From contig NZ_JASZYT010000002.1 of the NCBI RefSeq assembly GCF_030316765.1, forward strand, positions 558,001 to 622,000: a stretch of DNA of 64,000 nucleotides. Reading direction: 5' to 3'. The position numbers and the translations under genes were made by a program. This document shows, piece by piece, positions 9,223 to 12,420 of the stretch (position 1 is its first letter; every line of letters begins with the position of its first letter). The notes beneath the pieces are model-generated. The model made no database searches, was not told the DNA's origin, and saw nothing but the letters and a program-made list of their open reading frames with translations. The DNA is from Variovorax saccharolyticus. GTDB lineage: Bacteria > Pseudomonadota > Gammaproteobacteria > Burkholderiales > Burkholderiaceae_C.

Positions 9223-9240
9223 GGCCGCGGCGGGCCTCAG
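9219..9240. terminator. Bidirectional terminator-like palindrome containing both stop codons
   Basis: CTGAGGCC at 9219-9226 and GGCCTCAG at 9233-9240 form a perfect 8-bp stem around a 6-base loop between the convergent corA and response-regulator genes. Each arm contains the TGA of one gene, so the two stop codons lie symmetrically in the hairpin. There is no T-tract, so efficiency as an intrinsic terminator is uncertain. Confidence 0.5.
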
Positions 9241-9917
9241 CCCTCCGGTTCCTCGAAGGCGAAGCCCACACCGTAGACCGATCGGATCGTGTCGTGTGCC
9301 GGCACGGCCGCAGCCAGCTTGCGGCGCAGGTTCTTCACGTGGCTGTCGACCGCTCGCTCGGTCACATCGACGCTGTCCTCGTAGGCCAGGTCCAGCAGCT
9401 GGGCACGCGAGAAGATCCGCCCCGGCTGCCGCGACAGCGCCTGCAGCAGGCGGAACTCGAGCCGCGTCAGGTTGAGCGCCACGCCGTCGAAGCTGGCGCG
9501 CCAGTGCGTGTCGTCGAGCTGCAGCCGCCTGGGCGACGCAGGCGCCGCGGCCCCGCCAGCGCTGCGCCGCAGGACGGCGCGCACCCGGGCCACGACTTCG
9601 CGCGGCGAGAAGGGCTTGCAGATGTAGTCGTCGGCGCCGAGCTCCAGGCCGAGCAGGCGGTCGACCTCCTCGATGCGCGCGGTGAGCATGATCACCGGGT
9701 GCGTGCCGTGCAGGCGGGCGCGCCGCAGCACCTCCATGCCGTCCAGCCGCGGCAGCATGATGTCGAGCAGCGTGAGACCGGGCGGCTCCTGCAGCATGCG
9801 CTCGAGTGCGCGCTCGCCATCGGCGACGCGCTCGGTCTGGTAGCCCGCGTGCCGCAGGTAGTCGACCAGCACCGATGCGATGTCGTCCTCGTCCTCGACG
9901 ATCAGGATGCGGTTCAT
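9237..9917 (-). CDS. OmpR/PhoB-family response regulator
   Basis: The 226-residue protein has an N-terminal receiver domain with acidic pocket residues E8, D9 and phosphoacceptor D52 (LTLLDIMLPRLDG), plus T79 and K101. The C-terminal winged-helix domain (from ~130) contains LTRLEFRLLQALSRQPGRIFSRAQLLD and ends with RSVYGVGFAFEEPEG. It activates or represses transcription when phosphorylated by its partner kinase, encoded ten bases upstream. AGGAG lies six bases before the start. Family members nearest in pattern include BaeR, but the regulon cannot be assigned from sequence. Confidence 0.9.
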   Translation of the reverse strand: MNRILIVEDEDDIASVLVDYLRHAGYQTERVADGERALERMLQEPPGLTLLDIMLPRLDGMEVLRRARLHGTHPVIMLTARIEEVDRLLGLELGADDYICKPFSPREVVARVRAVLRRSAGGAAAPASPRRLQLDDTHWRASFDGVALNLTRLEFRLLQALSRQPGRIFSRAQLLDLAYEDSVDVTERAVDSHVKNLRRKLAAAVPAHDTIRSVYGVGFAFEEPEG

Positions 9918-9927
9918 CAGGGGCTCC

Positions 9928-11541
9928 TCAAGGCAGCGTTTCCGTGTGCGTCAGGGGCAGCGTCAAGACGATGCGCAGCCCTCCCAGCGGCGATGGCGCC
10001 GCGACGATGCTGCCGCCGTGCGCCTCGACCGTCGCGCGGCAGATCGCCAGCCCGAGCCCGGAGCCACCCAGGGCCCGGCTGCGCGAGGCCTCGCTGCGGA
10101 ACAGCCGCTCGAACAGCCGCGGCAGCTCGGCGGCCGCGACGCCGGGCGCGCTGTCGTCGAAGCGCAATACCAGCCGCTCGCTGCCCGCCGCGCCCTCGAT
10201 CCGCGCGCCGATCTCGAGCCGACCGCCGGCATCGGTGTAGGACAGCGTGTTTTCCAGCAGGTTCACACAGACCATGTGCAGGCGGCGCGGATCGCCCTGC
10301 AGCGCGGGGCGGCACTGTGCCGACAATTGTTCGAGTCCGGCCGCGTCGACGGCGATGCCGTGCTGCGCGAAGCGTTCGCGCGTCAGGGCCAGGGCCTCTT
10401 CCAGCAGCGCCAGCGGGAACACCGTGACGAAAGGGGGCGGGGCCTCCTCGCCGCGGTCGCGCATGCTGCTGCGCAGGTCGTCGACCAGCTGGCTGAGCCG
10501 CATCACCTGGCGGTGCAGGCGCAGCGCCGCCTTGTCGTCGAAGCTGCGCACGCCGTCCTGCAGCGCCTCGATCTCGGCCCGCATCGCGGCCAGCGGCGTG
10601 CGCAGCTCGTGCGCGACATCCGCCAGCCAGGCGCGGCGCGAGGACTCGATGCCGTCCAGGCGTTCGGCCATGTCGTTGAAGGTCCGGCCCAGCAAGGCCA
10701 GTTCATCCTGGCCGCGGACCGGCACGCGGGCGTCCAGGCGGCCTTGCGCGATGCGCTCGGCACCCTCGGTCAGGGCCTCGATCGGCGCGAACCAGCGCCG
10801 CGCCAGCAGCCACGACAGCAGCAGCGCGATGGCGAGGCCGGCGATGCCGGTCCAGACCACGAAGCTCGATTGCCGGGCGACGAAGGCGCGATCGGCCTCG
10901 GTCTCCAGGCCTTCGAGCGGTGCCAGCAGGAGCACGCCGATGATGCGATCGCCGTCGCGCAGCGGCAGCCGGGCCGCGGTGGCGGGATCGACGCGGGCGC
11001 CGGCGATCCAGTGGTCGGCGGCGTCGACCAGGCCCAGGCGCCGGTAGATCGAGTCGGGGTGGTTGCGAGGGTCCCTCATCGATCCCGGCGGGGGCAGCGG
11101 CAGGGTCATGCGCGGCGGCAGCAGTTCGGGCGGCAGCATCCCGCGCGGCCCGCTCGGGGGGGAGAAGGGCGGCCCGTCCTGCCACGGCGGCGGGCGGAAG
11201 TCGCGCGGCGGCCACGGCGGAACGGAGCGCTTGGCGCCGCTGTCCGGCTCGCTGGAAGGGGTACCGCCGCCGGGCCGTCCTTGCGGACGGAAGGGCGACA
11301 TCTGCAGGTGAAACCAGGTCTCCTCGTCGTCGCGCAGCGAGTTCCAGTTGCCCTCGGCCGCGTGCTGCTTCTTGAGGATCTCCGCGAACCAGTCCATGCG
11401 CCGGAGCTCGACCTCGGCCACATAGGGGCCGAGTCCCCGCTGCAGGCCGAGCCAGGAGAAGCTCGCGAAGATCAGCAAGAGGGCCAGCAGCAGGACGGCG
11501 AGCGCGAGGAATATCTTTCGGAAGAGGGTCAGGCGAGGCAT
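9928..11541 (-). CDS. Membrane sensor histidine kinase
   Basis: This 537-residue kinase has two membrane spans (~8-30 and ~228-250) bracketing a periplasmic sensor region, a HAMP domain (RRWFAPIEALTEGAERIAQG), a dimerisation domain with phosphoacceptor H311 (DVAHELRTPL), and an ATPase domain with N-box NLLEN (~427-431), G1 DDSAPG and G2 GGSGLGLAI. The sensor region contains an unusual proline- and arginine-rich stretch (~residues 80-150). It phosphorylates the response regulator encoded ten bases downstream. Upstream on the same strand lies a degenerate kinase-like gene whose C terminus resembles that of this protein. The signal sensed is unknown. Confidence 0.9.
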   Translation of the reverse strand: MPRLTLFRKIFLALAVLLLALLLIFASFSWLGLQRGLGPYVAEVELRRMDWFAEILKKQHAAEGNWNSLRDDEETWFHLQMSPFRPQGRPGGGTPSSEPDSGAKRSVPPWPPRDFRPPPWQDGPPFSPPSGPRGMLPPELLPPRMTLPLPPPGSMRDPRNHPDSIYRRLGLVDAADHWIAGARVDPATAARLPLRDGDRIIGVLLLAPLEGLETEADRAFVARQSSFVVWTGIAGLAIALLLSWLLARRWFAPIEALTEGAERIAQGRLDARVPVRGQDELALLGRTFNDMAERLDGIESSRRAWLADVAHELRTPLAAMRAEIEALQDGVRSFDDKAALRLHRQVMRLSQLVDDLRSSMRDRGEEAPPPFVTVFPLALLEEALALTRERFAQHGIAVDAAGLEQLSAQCRPALQGDPRRLHMVCVNLLENTLSYTDAGGRLEIGARIEGAAGSERLVLRFDDSAPGVAAAELPRLFERLFRSEASRSRALGGSGLGLAICRATVEAHGGSIVAAPSPLGGLRIVLTLPLTHTETLP

Positions 11542-11601
11542 GGCGGGGGAGGGCGGGCCACATTCTGCGGCATGGTCCGGAAGAGCAAGGGAAGCGCAGG
11601 A

Positions 11602-12240
11602 TCAGGAGAGCAGGGACGAGGCGCCGAAGCCGCGCGCGTGCTCGGCCGCCGTGCGTTCCAGCGGCAGGCGCAGCGTGATGCCCAGGCCGCCGAGCGGCGA
11701 CGGCGCGGCATAGATGCGCCCACGGTGATCGCTCACGATCTGCTCGCAGAGGGCGACGCTCGCGATCGCGTCGAGGTCGCCGCGCAGGCGCGGACTGCGT
11801 GCCGCCGCGGCGTCGAAGCAGCGTGCGAGCCGCGGCTCGTCGAGGCCCGGTGCGGCATCGATGAAGTTGACCACGGCATGGGCGCCGTCGATTCGGCCGA
11901 GCACCTTCAGCGTGCTGCCTGCGTGCATCGCGCGGCAGGCCAGATCGACGATGCGGGCCAGCACCTCCTGCATGCCCGAGCGATCGAGCACCACCGGCAA
12001 GGCATCGGCCGGCAGCGCCAGTTCGAGCGCCATGCCGGCCGCCTGCAGCCGGCCGCGCAGCGACTCCGACATCTGGTGCAGCAGCTGGCGCACGTCGGTG
12101 CGCGCGCGCGGGCCGGGGGCATGGGCGAGGCGGGTGACGGCGGGCCGGTTCGGCGCGGCCGCCCGGGGCCGCAGCAGGCGCCAGGGCACGCAGAGCAGCA
12201 ACGCAAGGAGGAGGGCGATGCAGGCGGGAATGGGGCTCAT
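11602..12240 (-). CDS. Membrane-anchored protein with degenerate histidine-kinase ATPase domain
   Basis: This 212-residue protein has one N-terminal membrane span (ACIALLLALLLCVPWRLL) and a C-terminal region that aligns with the ATPase domain of the neighbouring kinase: IDAAPGLDEP matches the G1 box and APSPLGGLGITLRLPL matches the kinase C terminus. Key elements are missing: the N-box asparagines are replaced (RIVDLACRAM), the G2 glycines are gone, and there is no phosphoacceptor helix. It therefore cannot be a normal kinase. It is the first gene of a unit with the kinase and response regulator, suggesting a modulator of that system. An alternative start at 12273 has AAGGA upstream. Confidence 0.65.
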   Translation of the reverse strand: MSPIPACIALLLALLLCVPWRLLRPRAAAPNRPAVTRLAHAPGPRARTDVRQLLHQMSESLRGRLQAAGMALELALPADALPVVLDRSGMQEVLARIVDLACRAMHAGSTLKVLGRIDGAHAVVNFIDAAPGLDEPRLARCFDAAAARSPRLRGDLDAIASVALCEQIVSDHRGRIYAAPSPLGGLGITLRLPLERTAAEHARGFGASSLLS

Positions 12241-12420
12241 CGGGGGTGGAAATTCAGTTGCGACGCCGCGCATTAGTCCTTGCCTGCGGCTTTTGCGCAA
12301 CAACTCCCGGCGGCGGCGGCAGGCCTTCAAGATGTCTCCCCATTCGGGGTGCAGCATGCGGTTCGGCATCGCCTCACCTCGTACCATGGAGGCTTCGTCG
12401 TCCTCCTGCCGAAGCGTTCC

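Follow-up and report, generated by a model that had tools for sequence, protein, structure and literature searches.

In the window (the whole stretch of 64,000 nucleotides analysed, positions 558,001 to 622,000 of contig NZ_JASZYT010000002.1 of Variovorax saccharolyticus), three consecutive genes on the minus strand encode, in this order, a small protein resembling the CA (catalytic and ATP-binding) domain of histidine kinases, a BaeS-like sensor kinase of an ordinary stress-sensing type and a BaeR-like response regulator. The gap between the CA-like gene and the kinase gene is 60 nucleotides (nt), and that between the kinase and regulator genes is 10 nt. The positions and the same-strand order had been given in an earlier, sequence-only reading of this DNA and have been confirmed. 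The small protein is a kinase-derived CA-only protein that may serve as a non-catalytic accessory of the two-component system. The following features have been assigned, each with the evidence in brackets, where dN/dS is the ratio of nonsynonymous to synonymous substitution rates:

11602..12240, minus strand: CA-only pseudo-histidine-kinase protein of 212 aa, with a predicted membrane anchor and a degenerate CA domain (open reading frame, Pfam HATPase_c, AlphaFold model, CA fold, dN/dS)
12175..12231, minus strand: predicted transmembrane helix, residues 4-22 of this protein (helix in the AlphaFold model; hydropathy and charge count)
11656..12105, minus strand: degenerate CA domain, residues 46-195 (66 family members against 34 kinases; secondary structure of the model)
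11662..11721, minus strand: family signature GRIYAAPSPLGGLGITLRLP, residues 174-193 (R175, Y177, T189 and R191 nearly invariant)
9928..11541, minus strand: BaeS-like sensor kinase of 537 aa with the full set of kinase motifs (HAMP, HisKA and HATPase_c by Pfam; NCBIfam)
9237..9917, minus strand: BaeR-like response regulator of the OmpR family, 226 aa (Response_reg and Trans_reg_C by Pfam; NCBIfam)

The 212-residue protein matches the Pfam family HATPase_c (E 3.6e-7; 31 bits against a cut-off of 26.4), and Pfam gives no HisKA match within it: the protein begins at the DHp-CA linker and is devoid of the DHp (dimerization and histidine phosphotransfer) domain with its phosphoacceptor histidine. 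In a BLASTP alignment it is 40% identical to the neighbouring kinase across 113 residues (E 5e-14), and the two proteins share their C-terminal ending (APSPLGGLGITLRLPL and APSPLGGLRIVLTLPL). In view of the HATPase_c match and the E value of the alignment, this likeness is not due to chance. The AlphaFold2 model, based on 16 aligned sequences, has a mean pLDDT (predicted local distance difference test) of 86.3 and a pTM (predicted template modelling score) of 0.75, and presents a CA-type arrangement of helices and a mixed sheet, in which an ordinary ATP lid would not fit. The best PDB matches found by Foldseek are chains of CpxA (E 2.1e-11). The top match in VIA-align is the pseudokinase DivL (4q20_B; Z 16.9, root-mean-square deviation 2.4, 141 residues), a first rank that means little, since the Z scores of many ordinary kinases differ from that of DivL by no more than 1 or 2 units. 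A helical hairpin with a phosphorylatable histidine, of the ChpT/Spo0B type, is not present in the model, which has a single hydrophobic N-terminal helix. This helix (residues 4-22; mean hydropathy 2.25 over 19 residues) is the only one ahead of the CA-like domain, and the Arg-rich stretch following it suggests that the domain is cytoplasmic.

The catalytic motifs have been compared between 66 members from the 69 Variovorax loci and 34 of 50 collected full kinases. Three loci missed or cut by the gene caller (L055, L125, L133) and 16 duplicate or distant kinases were left out; many of the 66 members are close relatives, and the counts are not independent. The Mg-binding asparagine occurs in 0/66 members against 34/34 kinases, and the first N-box asparagine in one of 66 against all 34; the G2 glycines are absent across the family and the ATP-lid columns are mostly gaps. 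The G1 aspartate (Asp128), which in kinases recognises adenine, is retained as D in 62 and E in four of the 66 members. None of the attributes of an active histidine kinase (DHp domain with histidine, N-box asparagine, Mg-binding asparagine, G2 glycines, lid) is found in the CA-like protein. With the DHp domain, the Mg-binding asparagine, the glycines and the lid all gone, it should neither bind ATP in kinase fashion nor phosphorylate a partner, as far as sequence motifs can tell.

In place of these motifs the family has a signature of its own, with residues that are nearly invariant among members and differently distributed among kinases: (i) R175 in 64/66 members against 3/34 kinases; (ii) Y177 in 64/66 against 0/34; (iii) T189 in 65/66 against 23/34; (iv) R191 in 65/66 against 7/34. 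Further family positions are D49 (66/66 against 8/34), R51 (61/66 against 2/34) and P180 (66/66 against 13/34). The corresponding motif, GRxY...TxRLP, is present in all nine Xenophilus sequences, including those members that have lost the G1 aspartate. Judging by strand alternation, R175, Y177, T189 and R191 would point outward from the outer face of the sheet, and they look like a new contact surface and not like decay. One member (L133:14778-15362) lacks about 20 further residues around the former lid, its frame still being open. The sequence-only reading had described the alignment with the kinase and the shared ending, the lack of N-box asparagines, G2 glycines and phosphoacceptor helix, and a membrane anchor of the protein's own; all of this holds, the losses being family-wide and the anchor a prediction, and the structure prediction it had proposed for the protein alone has returned a CA fold.

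The CA-like gene is maintained by selection. Among 17 pairs of CA proteins dN/dS (counting method) ranges from 0.135 to 0.425; in three close pairs the ratio for residues 46-195 is 0.139, 0.157 and 0.082, and that for residues 1-45 is 0.37-0.71. The neighbouring kinase gives 0.036-0.289 over 13 pairs of loci, so the CA domain is under clear constraint, weaker than that of the kinase. Frames are open in all nine orthologues from close relatives with the same gene arrangement. A decaying gene is rejected by dN/dS well under 1 together with the family's own conserved motif, and the decay in close relatives that the sequence-only reading had named as grounds for abandoning its proposal was not seen. 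The protein is thus kinase-derived, has lost its catalytic residues and is kept by selection, as a pseudo-histidine-kinase would be. In Variovorax sp. J22P240 there are three copies of the CA gene, the third of which (L093) is broken.

A family profile search of 100 Variovorax genomes has identified at least 68 members at 129 bits or more in at least 57 genomes; these are lower bounds, as the best 32 candidates per genome were scored, and one further intact member (G014, locus L133), missed by the search, was found by inspection. Of the 100 genomes, 65 have a BaeS orthologue at E 1e-100 or better. Both genes occur together in 56, the CA gene without BaeS in two, BaeS without the CA gene in nine, and neither in 33 (Fisher p 7e-16, uncorrected for relatedness). 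In the two genomes with the CA gene only, the copies adjoin another regulator or RND (resistance-nodulation-division) pumps (L048, L059, L124), and in three of the nine with BaeS only (G010, G022, G496) the locus ends at a contig edge. In Xenophilus, kinases aside, CA-like matches (E 1e-20 or better) occur in nine of 15 genomes. Beyond these two genera no member has been found in two sets of 399 genomes, one from the order and one from the taxonomic family, an absence that is not firm with the best eight candidates taken per genome; the other strong matches were full kinases or, in the case of short frames, were traced to kinases. Three such short frames (G111, G248, G279) proved to be CA domains of ordinary kinases with the N-box asparagine retained, and fall outside the CA-only family. 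A PHROGs search matched only kinase-like or unnamed families.

Gene order, compared with open reading frames from a codon-score gene caller (starts were chosen by hand for 37 proteins), shows a long-kept linkage of the family to a BaeS/BaeR-type two-component system, often together with a porin, in the two soil-bacterium genera Variovorax and Xenophilus. A BaeS orthologue lies downstream of the CA gene on the same strand within 5.5 kb in 19 of the 69 Variovorax loci, and on the opposite strand within 8.5 kb in 26. A porin gene adjoins the CA gene in 36 loci, a further regulator-kinase pair follows it in seven, and RND pump genes stand beside it in five; these classes overlap. In Xenophilus all nine CA genes are directly upstream of a BaeS orthologue on the same strand, with about 230-350 nt between matched ends, and these orthologues are 52-55% identical over 400 or more residues, against 35% for a non-orthologous control kinase. 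The order porin-CA-BaeS-BaeR is found in two Xenophilus loci and in Variovorax L042. Beyond the CA-BaeS pair the flanks vary between lineages (CorA, DNA ligase D, RND pump, porin and others), which indicates that the pair was kept while its surroundings changed. The case in which the gene would not be linked to the kinase elsewhere, raised in the sequence-only reading, is therefore not what is observed.

Several individual arrangements have been noted within these loci. An intradiol dioxygenase-related gene stands between the CA gene and BaeS in three species (L032:5165-5983, L035:6368-7081, L038:4568-5203; Pfam match for L032 and L035). In Xenophilus azovorans one frame directly before BaeS (L095:4286-5533) encodes a CA-like domain together with a hydrolase domain of the GDSL type and a short hydrophobic segment, possibly as a periplasm-to-cytoplasm fusion. 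In L128 (G083) there is no CA gene, and next to BaeS only a fragment of the porin remains, suggesting the loss of both. In L049, L064, L067, L121, L122 and L123, clusters of FecI, FecR and TonB-receptor genes are headed by paralogous CA-like genes, which lie 280-405 nt ahead of FecI.

The origin of the family has been addressed with two maximum-likelihood trees of CA domains, one of 37 members and 24 kinases and one of 19 members and 31 kinases. In both, the family members group in a single clade (100/100), apart from the BaeS orthologues of the locus, which make up a clade of their own. Joining the family with the orthologues of the adjacent kinase is marginally rejected by the approximately unbiased test (p-AU 0.038 in the first tree, 0.0299 in the second). 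The full kinases closest to the family are of the BaeS type and belong to other loci, of which the four examined (L051, L052, L146, L147) adjoin RND pump genes; a joining of the family with the single nearest ones, L051/L052, is unsupported (84/34). The family profile likewise scores other BaeS-type kinases at up to 129 bits and the adjacent kinase at 53 bits. The sequence-only reading had proposed a duplication of the kinase that became a pseudokinase: the pseudokinase character stands, whereas descent from the adjacent kinase is disfavoured by the trees, with their marginal p-AU values and long branches, and by the profile scores.

Taken together, the CA-like protein is about as likely as otherwise to serve the BaeSR locus as a non-catalytic accessory, tuning the phosphate traffic of BaeS and BaeR by contact. 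We infer such contact because a CA-shaped protein, tethered to the membrane and bearing a conserved surface, is encoded together with a kinase and a regulator. The helix would keep the domain next to BaeS on the cytoplasmic side of the membrane, and the protein would work without ATP, by binding either BaeS, through the DHp or the CA domain of the kinase, or BaeR, with R175, Y177, T189 and R191 as the candidate contact surface. Such binding would shift the kinase/phosphatase balance or the access of the regulator, in an activating or a damping sense. The same contact could explain the copies beside other two-component genes; it would not explain those heading FecI/FecR.

Several observations weigh against this accessory role. 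Where BaeS lies on the opposite strand (26 loci), it is separated from the CA gene by porin, NERD-domain, Omp85 and regulator genes. Six of the 69 loci precede FecI-FecR-TonB-receptor genes with no kinase alongside, four lie beside another regulator, two beside an RND pump only, and four fit no class, one of them (L111) being cut by the contig end. A tblastn search over 13-16 kb in each of six BaeS-bearing genomes (G001, G006, G083, G084, G085, G489) matched only the kinase itself and no CA gene, and none was found beside one Xenophilus BaeS (L160); BaeS can thus do without the CA protein. A clear anchor is seen by the hydropathy test in 53 of 66 members, and the Xenophilus members look poor in it. 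Of 13 pairs, 12 show faster evolution of the CA protein than of the kinase. Finally, the ATP lid, gone here, helps in ordinary kinases to dock the CA domain on DHp. The sequence-only reading had suggested a heterodimer partner or decoy that tunes the kinase; copies found beside FecI/FecR genes and beside other regulators are at odds with a role restricted to this kinase.

Known systems, taken as described in passages or abstracts of the cited papers, offer partial parallels. Like the CA-like protein, DivL of Caulobacter, its best structural match, has a CA fold without kinase output, and it regulates a real kinase pathway; DivL possesses PAS and DHp domains, with tyrosine in place of histidine (PMC4211667), whereas here the CA domain stands alone with a membrane helix. 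ChpT, as well as Spo0B, has a Bergerat-like domain in which the ATP lid is replaced and no ATP is bound (PMC3433190), but ChpT keeps the helical hairpin with a phosphorylated histidine that is absent here. In the split kinases CheA3/CheA4 and Hik36/Hik43 (for the latter, PMC7656254) kinase-type domains are divided between proteins; CheA4, however, binds ATP and phosphorylates CheA3 (PMC3591291), while the CA-like protein has no ATP motifs and its partner kinase is complete. ChrS of Corynebacterium glutamicum, inactivated in its CA domain, alters signalling through heterodimers with a paralogue (PMC9491836), but it is a laboratory-evolved frameshift in a full kinase and not a natural CA-only family. 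The adjacent kinase and regulator score best against the BaeS and BaeR models (SmeS being included in the former), both below the NCBIfam cut-offs. To our knowledge, baeSR of E. coli has no such third gene, and the known pseudo-histidine-kinases keep a DHp domain. So far as those passages and abstracts describe them, none of DivL, ChpT, the split kinases and ChrS combines a membrane helix with a lone CA domain in the absence of DHp. No report of a CA-only pseudokinase family or of this locus was found in the literature search, which reached few subscription papers.

Other explanations bear on the same evidence. The variety of contexts among the 69 loci (porin in 36, FecI in six, a further two-component pair in seven, another regulator in four, an RND pump in five) and the porin-CA-BaeS-BaeR order of two Xenophilus loci would suit a general plug-in module that serves whichever envelope regulator or transport gene adjoins it, be it BaeSR, FecI/FecR, other regulators, RND pumps or porins, with BaeS as one client or a mere neighbour. 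Such a module is possible but on the improbable side: linkage to BaeS is the commonest single context besides porins (45/69), and the one common to both genera. A ligand sensor, whose former ATP pocket or outer sheet face would take up a small molecule, be it a purine compound or a cyclic dinucleotide, and whose loaded form would relay the signal, is unlikely. Retention of the G1 aspartate speaks for it, as does the alignment, made here through the G-x-I motif with the PDB sequence, of R175-I176 with W523-I524 of CckA; these two residues are among the c-di-GMP contacts listed in a passage of a review that also names Y514 and K518 (PMC7288161). The positions matching Y514 and K518 are not conserved, however, and the aspartate is lost in some Xenophilus members whose signature stays.

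It is likewise rather improbable that the protein is a membrane tether or sequestering trap for a response regulator, by analogy with the reading of DivK~P by DivL, which has been repurposed as a sensor of the phosphorylated regulator (passages of PMC4211667). DivL is the best structural match, but the top structural scores are near ties, and DivL works by a DHp-CA unit with PAS domains, whereas the CA-like protein has no DHp. The DHp domain is the main part on which regulators dock. The relic of a duplicated, decaying adjacent kinase has very little in its favour: one decayed paralogue in J22P240 (L093) and the six BaeS loci without a CA gene would agree with it, against purifying selection, a conserved motif of the family's own and its position in the trees. 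Least credible is a split kinase in which the CA domain would phosphorylate a DHp domain in trans, as CheA4 does for CheA3. The CA-type fold and the linkage to a kinase gene are what it would predict, but the Mg-binding and N-box asparagines, the G2 glycines and the lid are lost and the adjacent kinase has a complete CA domain of its own; the protein is hence probably not a split-kinase CA subunit.

The copies that head FecI, FecR and TonB-receptor genes have no adjacent kinase and so point to a wider reuse and to a role that is not strictly kinase-bound. A tentative and rather doubtful generalisation is that these lineage-specific CA-only pseudokinases constitute an ATP-free binding module with a new surface (R175/Y177/T189/R191), which arose with a BaeSR locus and was copied to other envelope regulators, including the kinase-less ECF (extracytoplasmic function) sigma/anti-sigma pair FecI/FecR, as a reusable membrane-tethered modulator. 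If a natural family is maintained by selection with a catalytically dead CA domain as its sole kinase part, this would demonstrate that the fold can regulate by itself, and such a family would be a clean system in which to study what CA domains do besides catalysis. All six distant members scanned with HATPase_c (L061, L049, L057, L133, L144, L145) fell below the cut-off or gave no hit; as most distant members were missed in this small test, proteins of this kind may elsewhere be annotated as hypothetical.

As to the two partner genes, the best NCBIfam model for the kinase is BaeS_SmeS at 339.8 bits, below the equivalog cut-off of 500, for which reason it is named "BaeS-like", and the regulator scores 267.2 bits with BaeR, under the cut-off of 380. 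Kinase residues 84-155 (window 11077-11292, minus strand), about 70 in all, are rich in proline and lie in the predicted periplasmic part. Two start codons are candidates for the CA-like gene, the ATG at 12240, with no clear Shine-Dalgarno sequence ahead of it, and an in-frame upstream ATG at 12273, where the span given in the sequence-only reading ends, preceded by an AAGGA-like sequence. In the closest relative (L031) the ATG matching 12273 is out of frame with the CA gene, which makes 12240 the likelier start. Further upstream of the CA gene, a 24-nt block (window 12323-12346) is identical in L031 amid differing surroundings and is perhaps a regulatory site.

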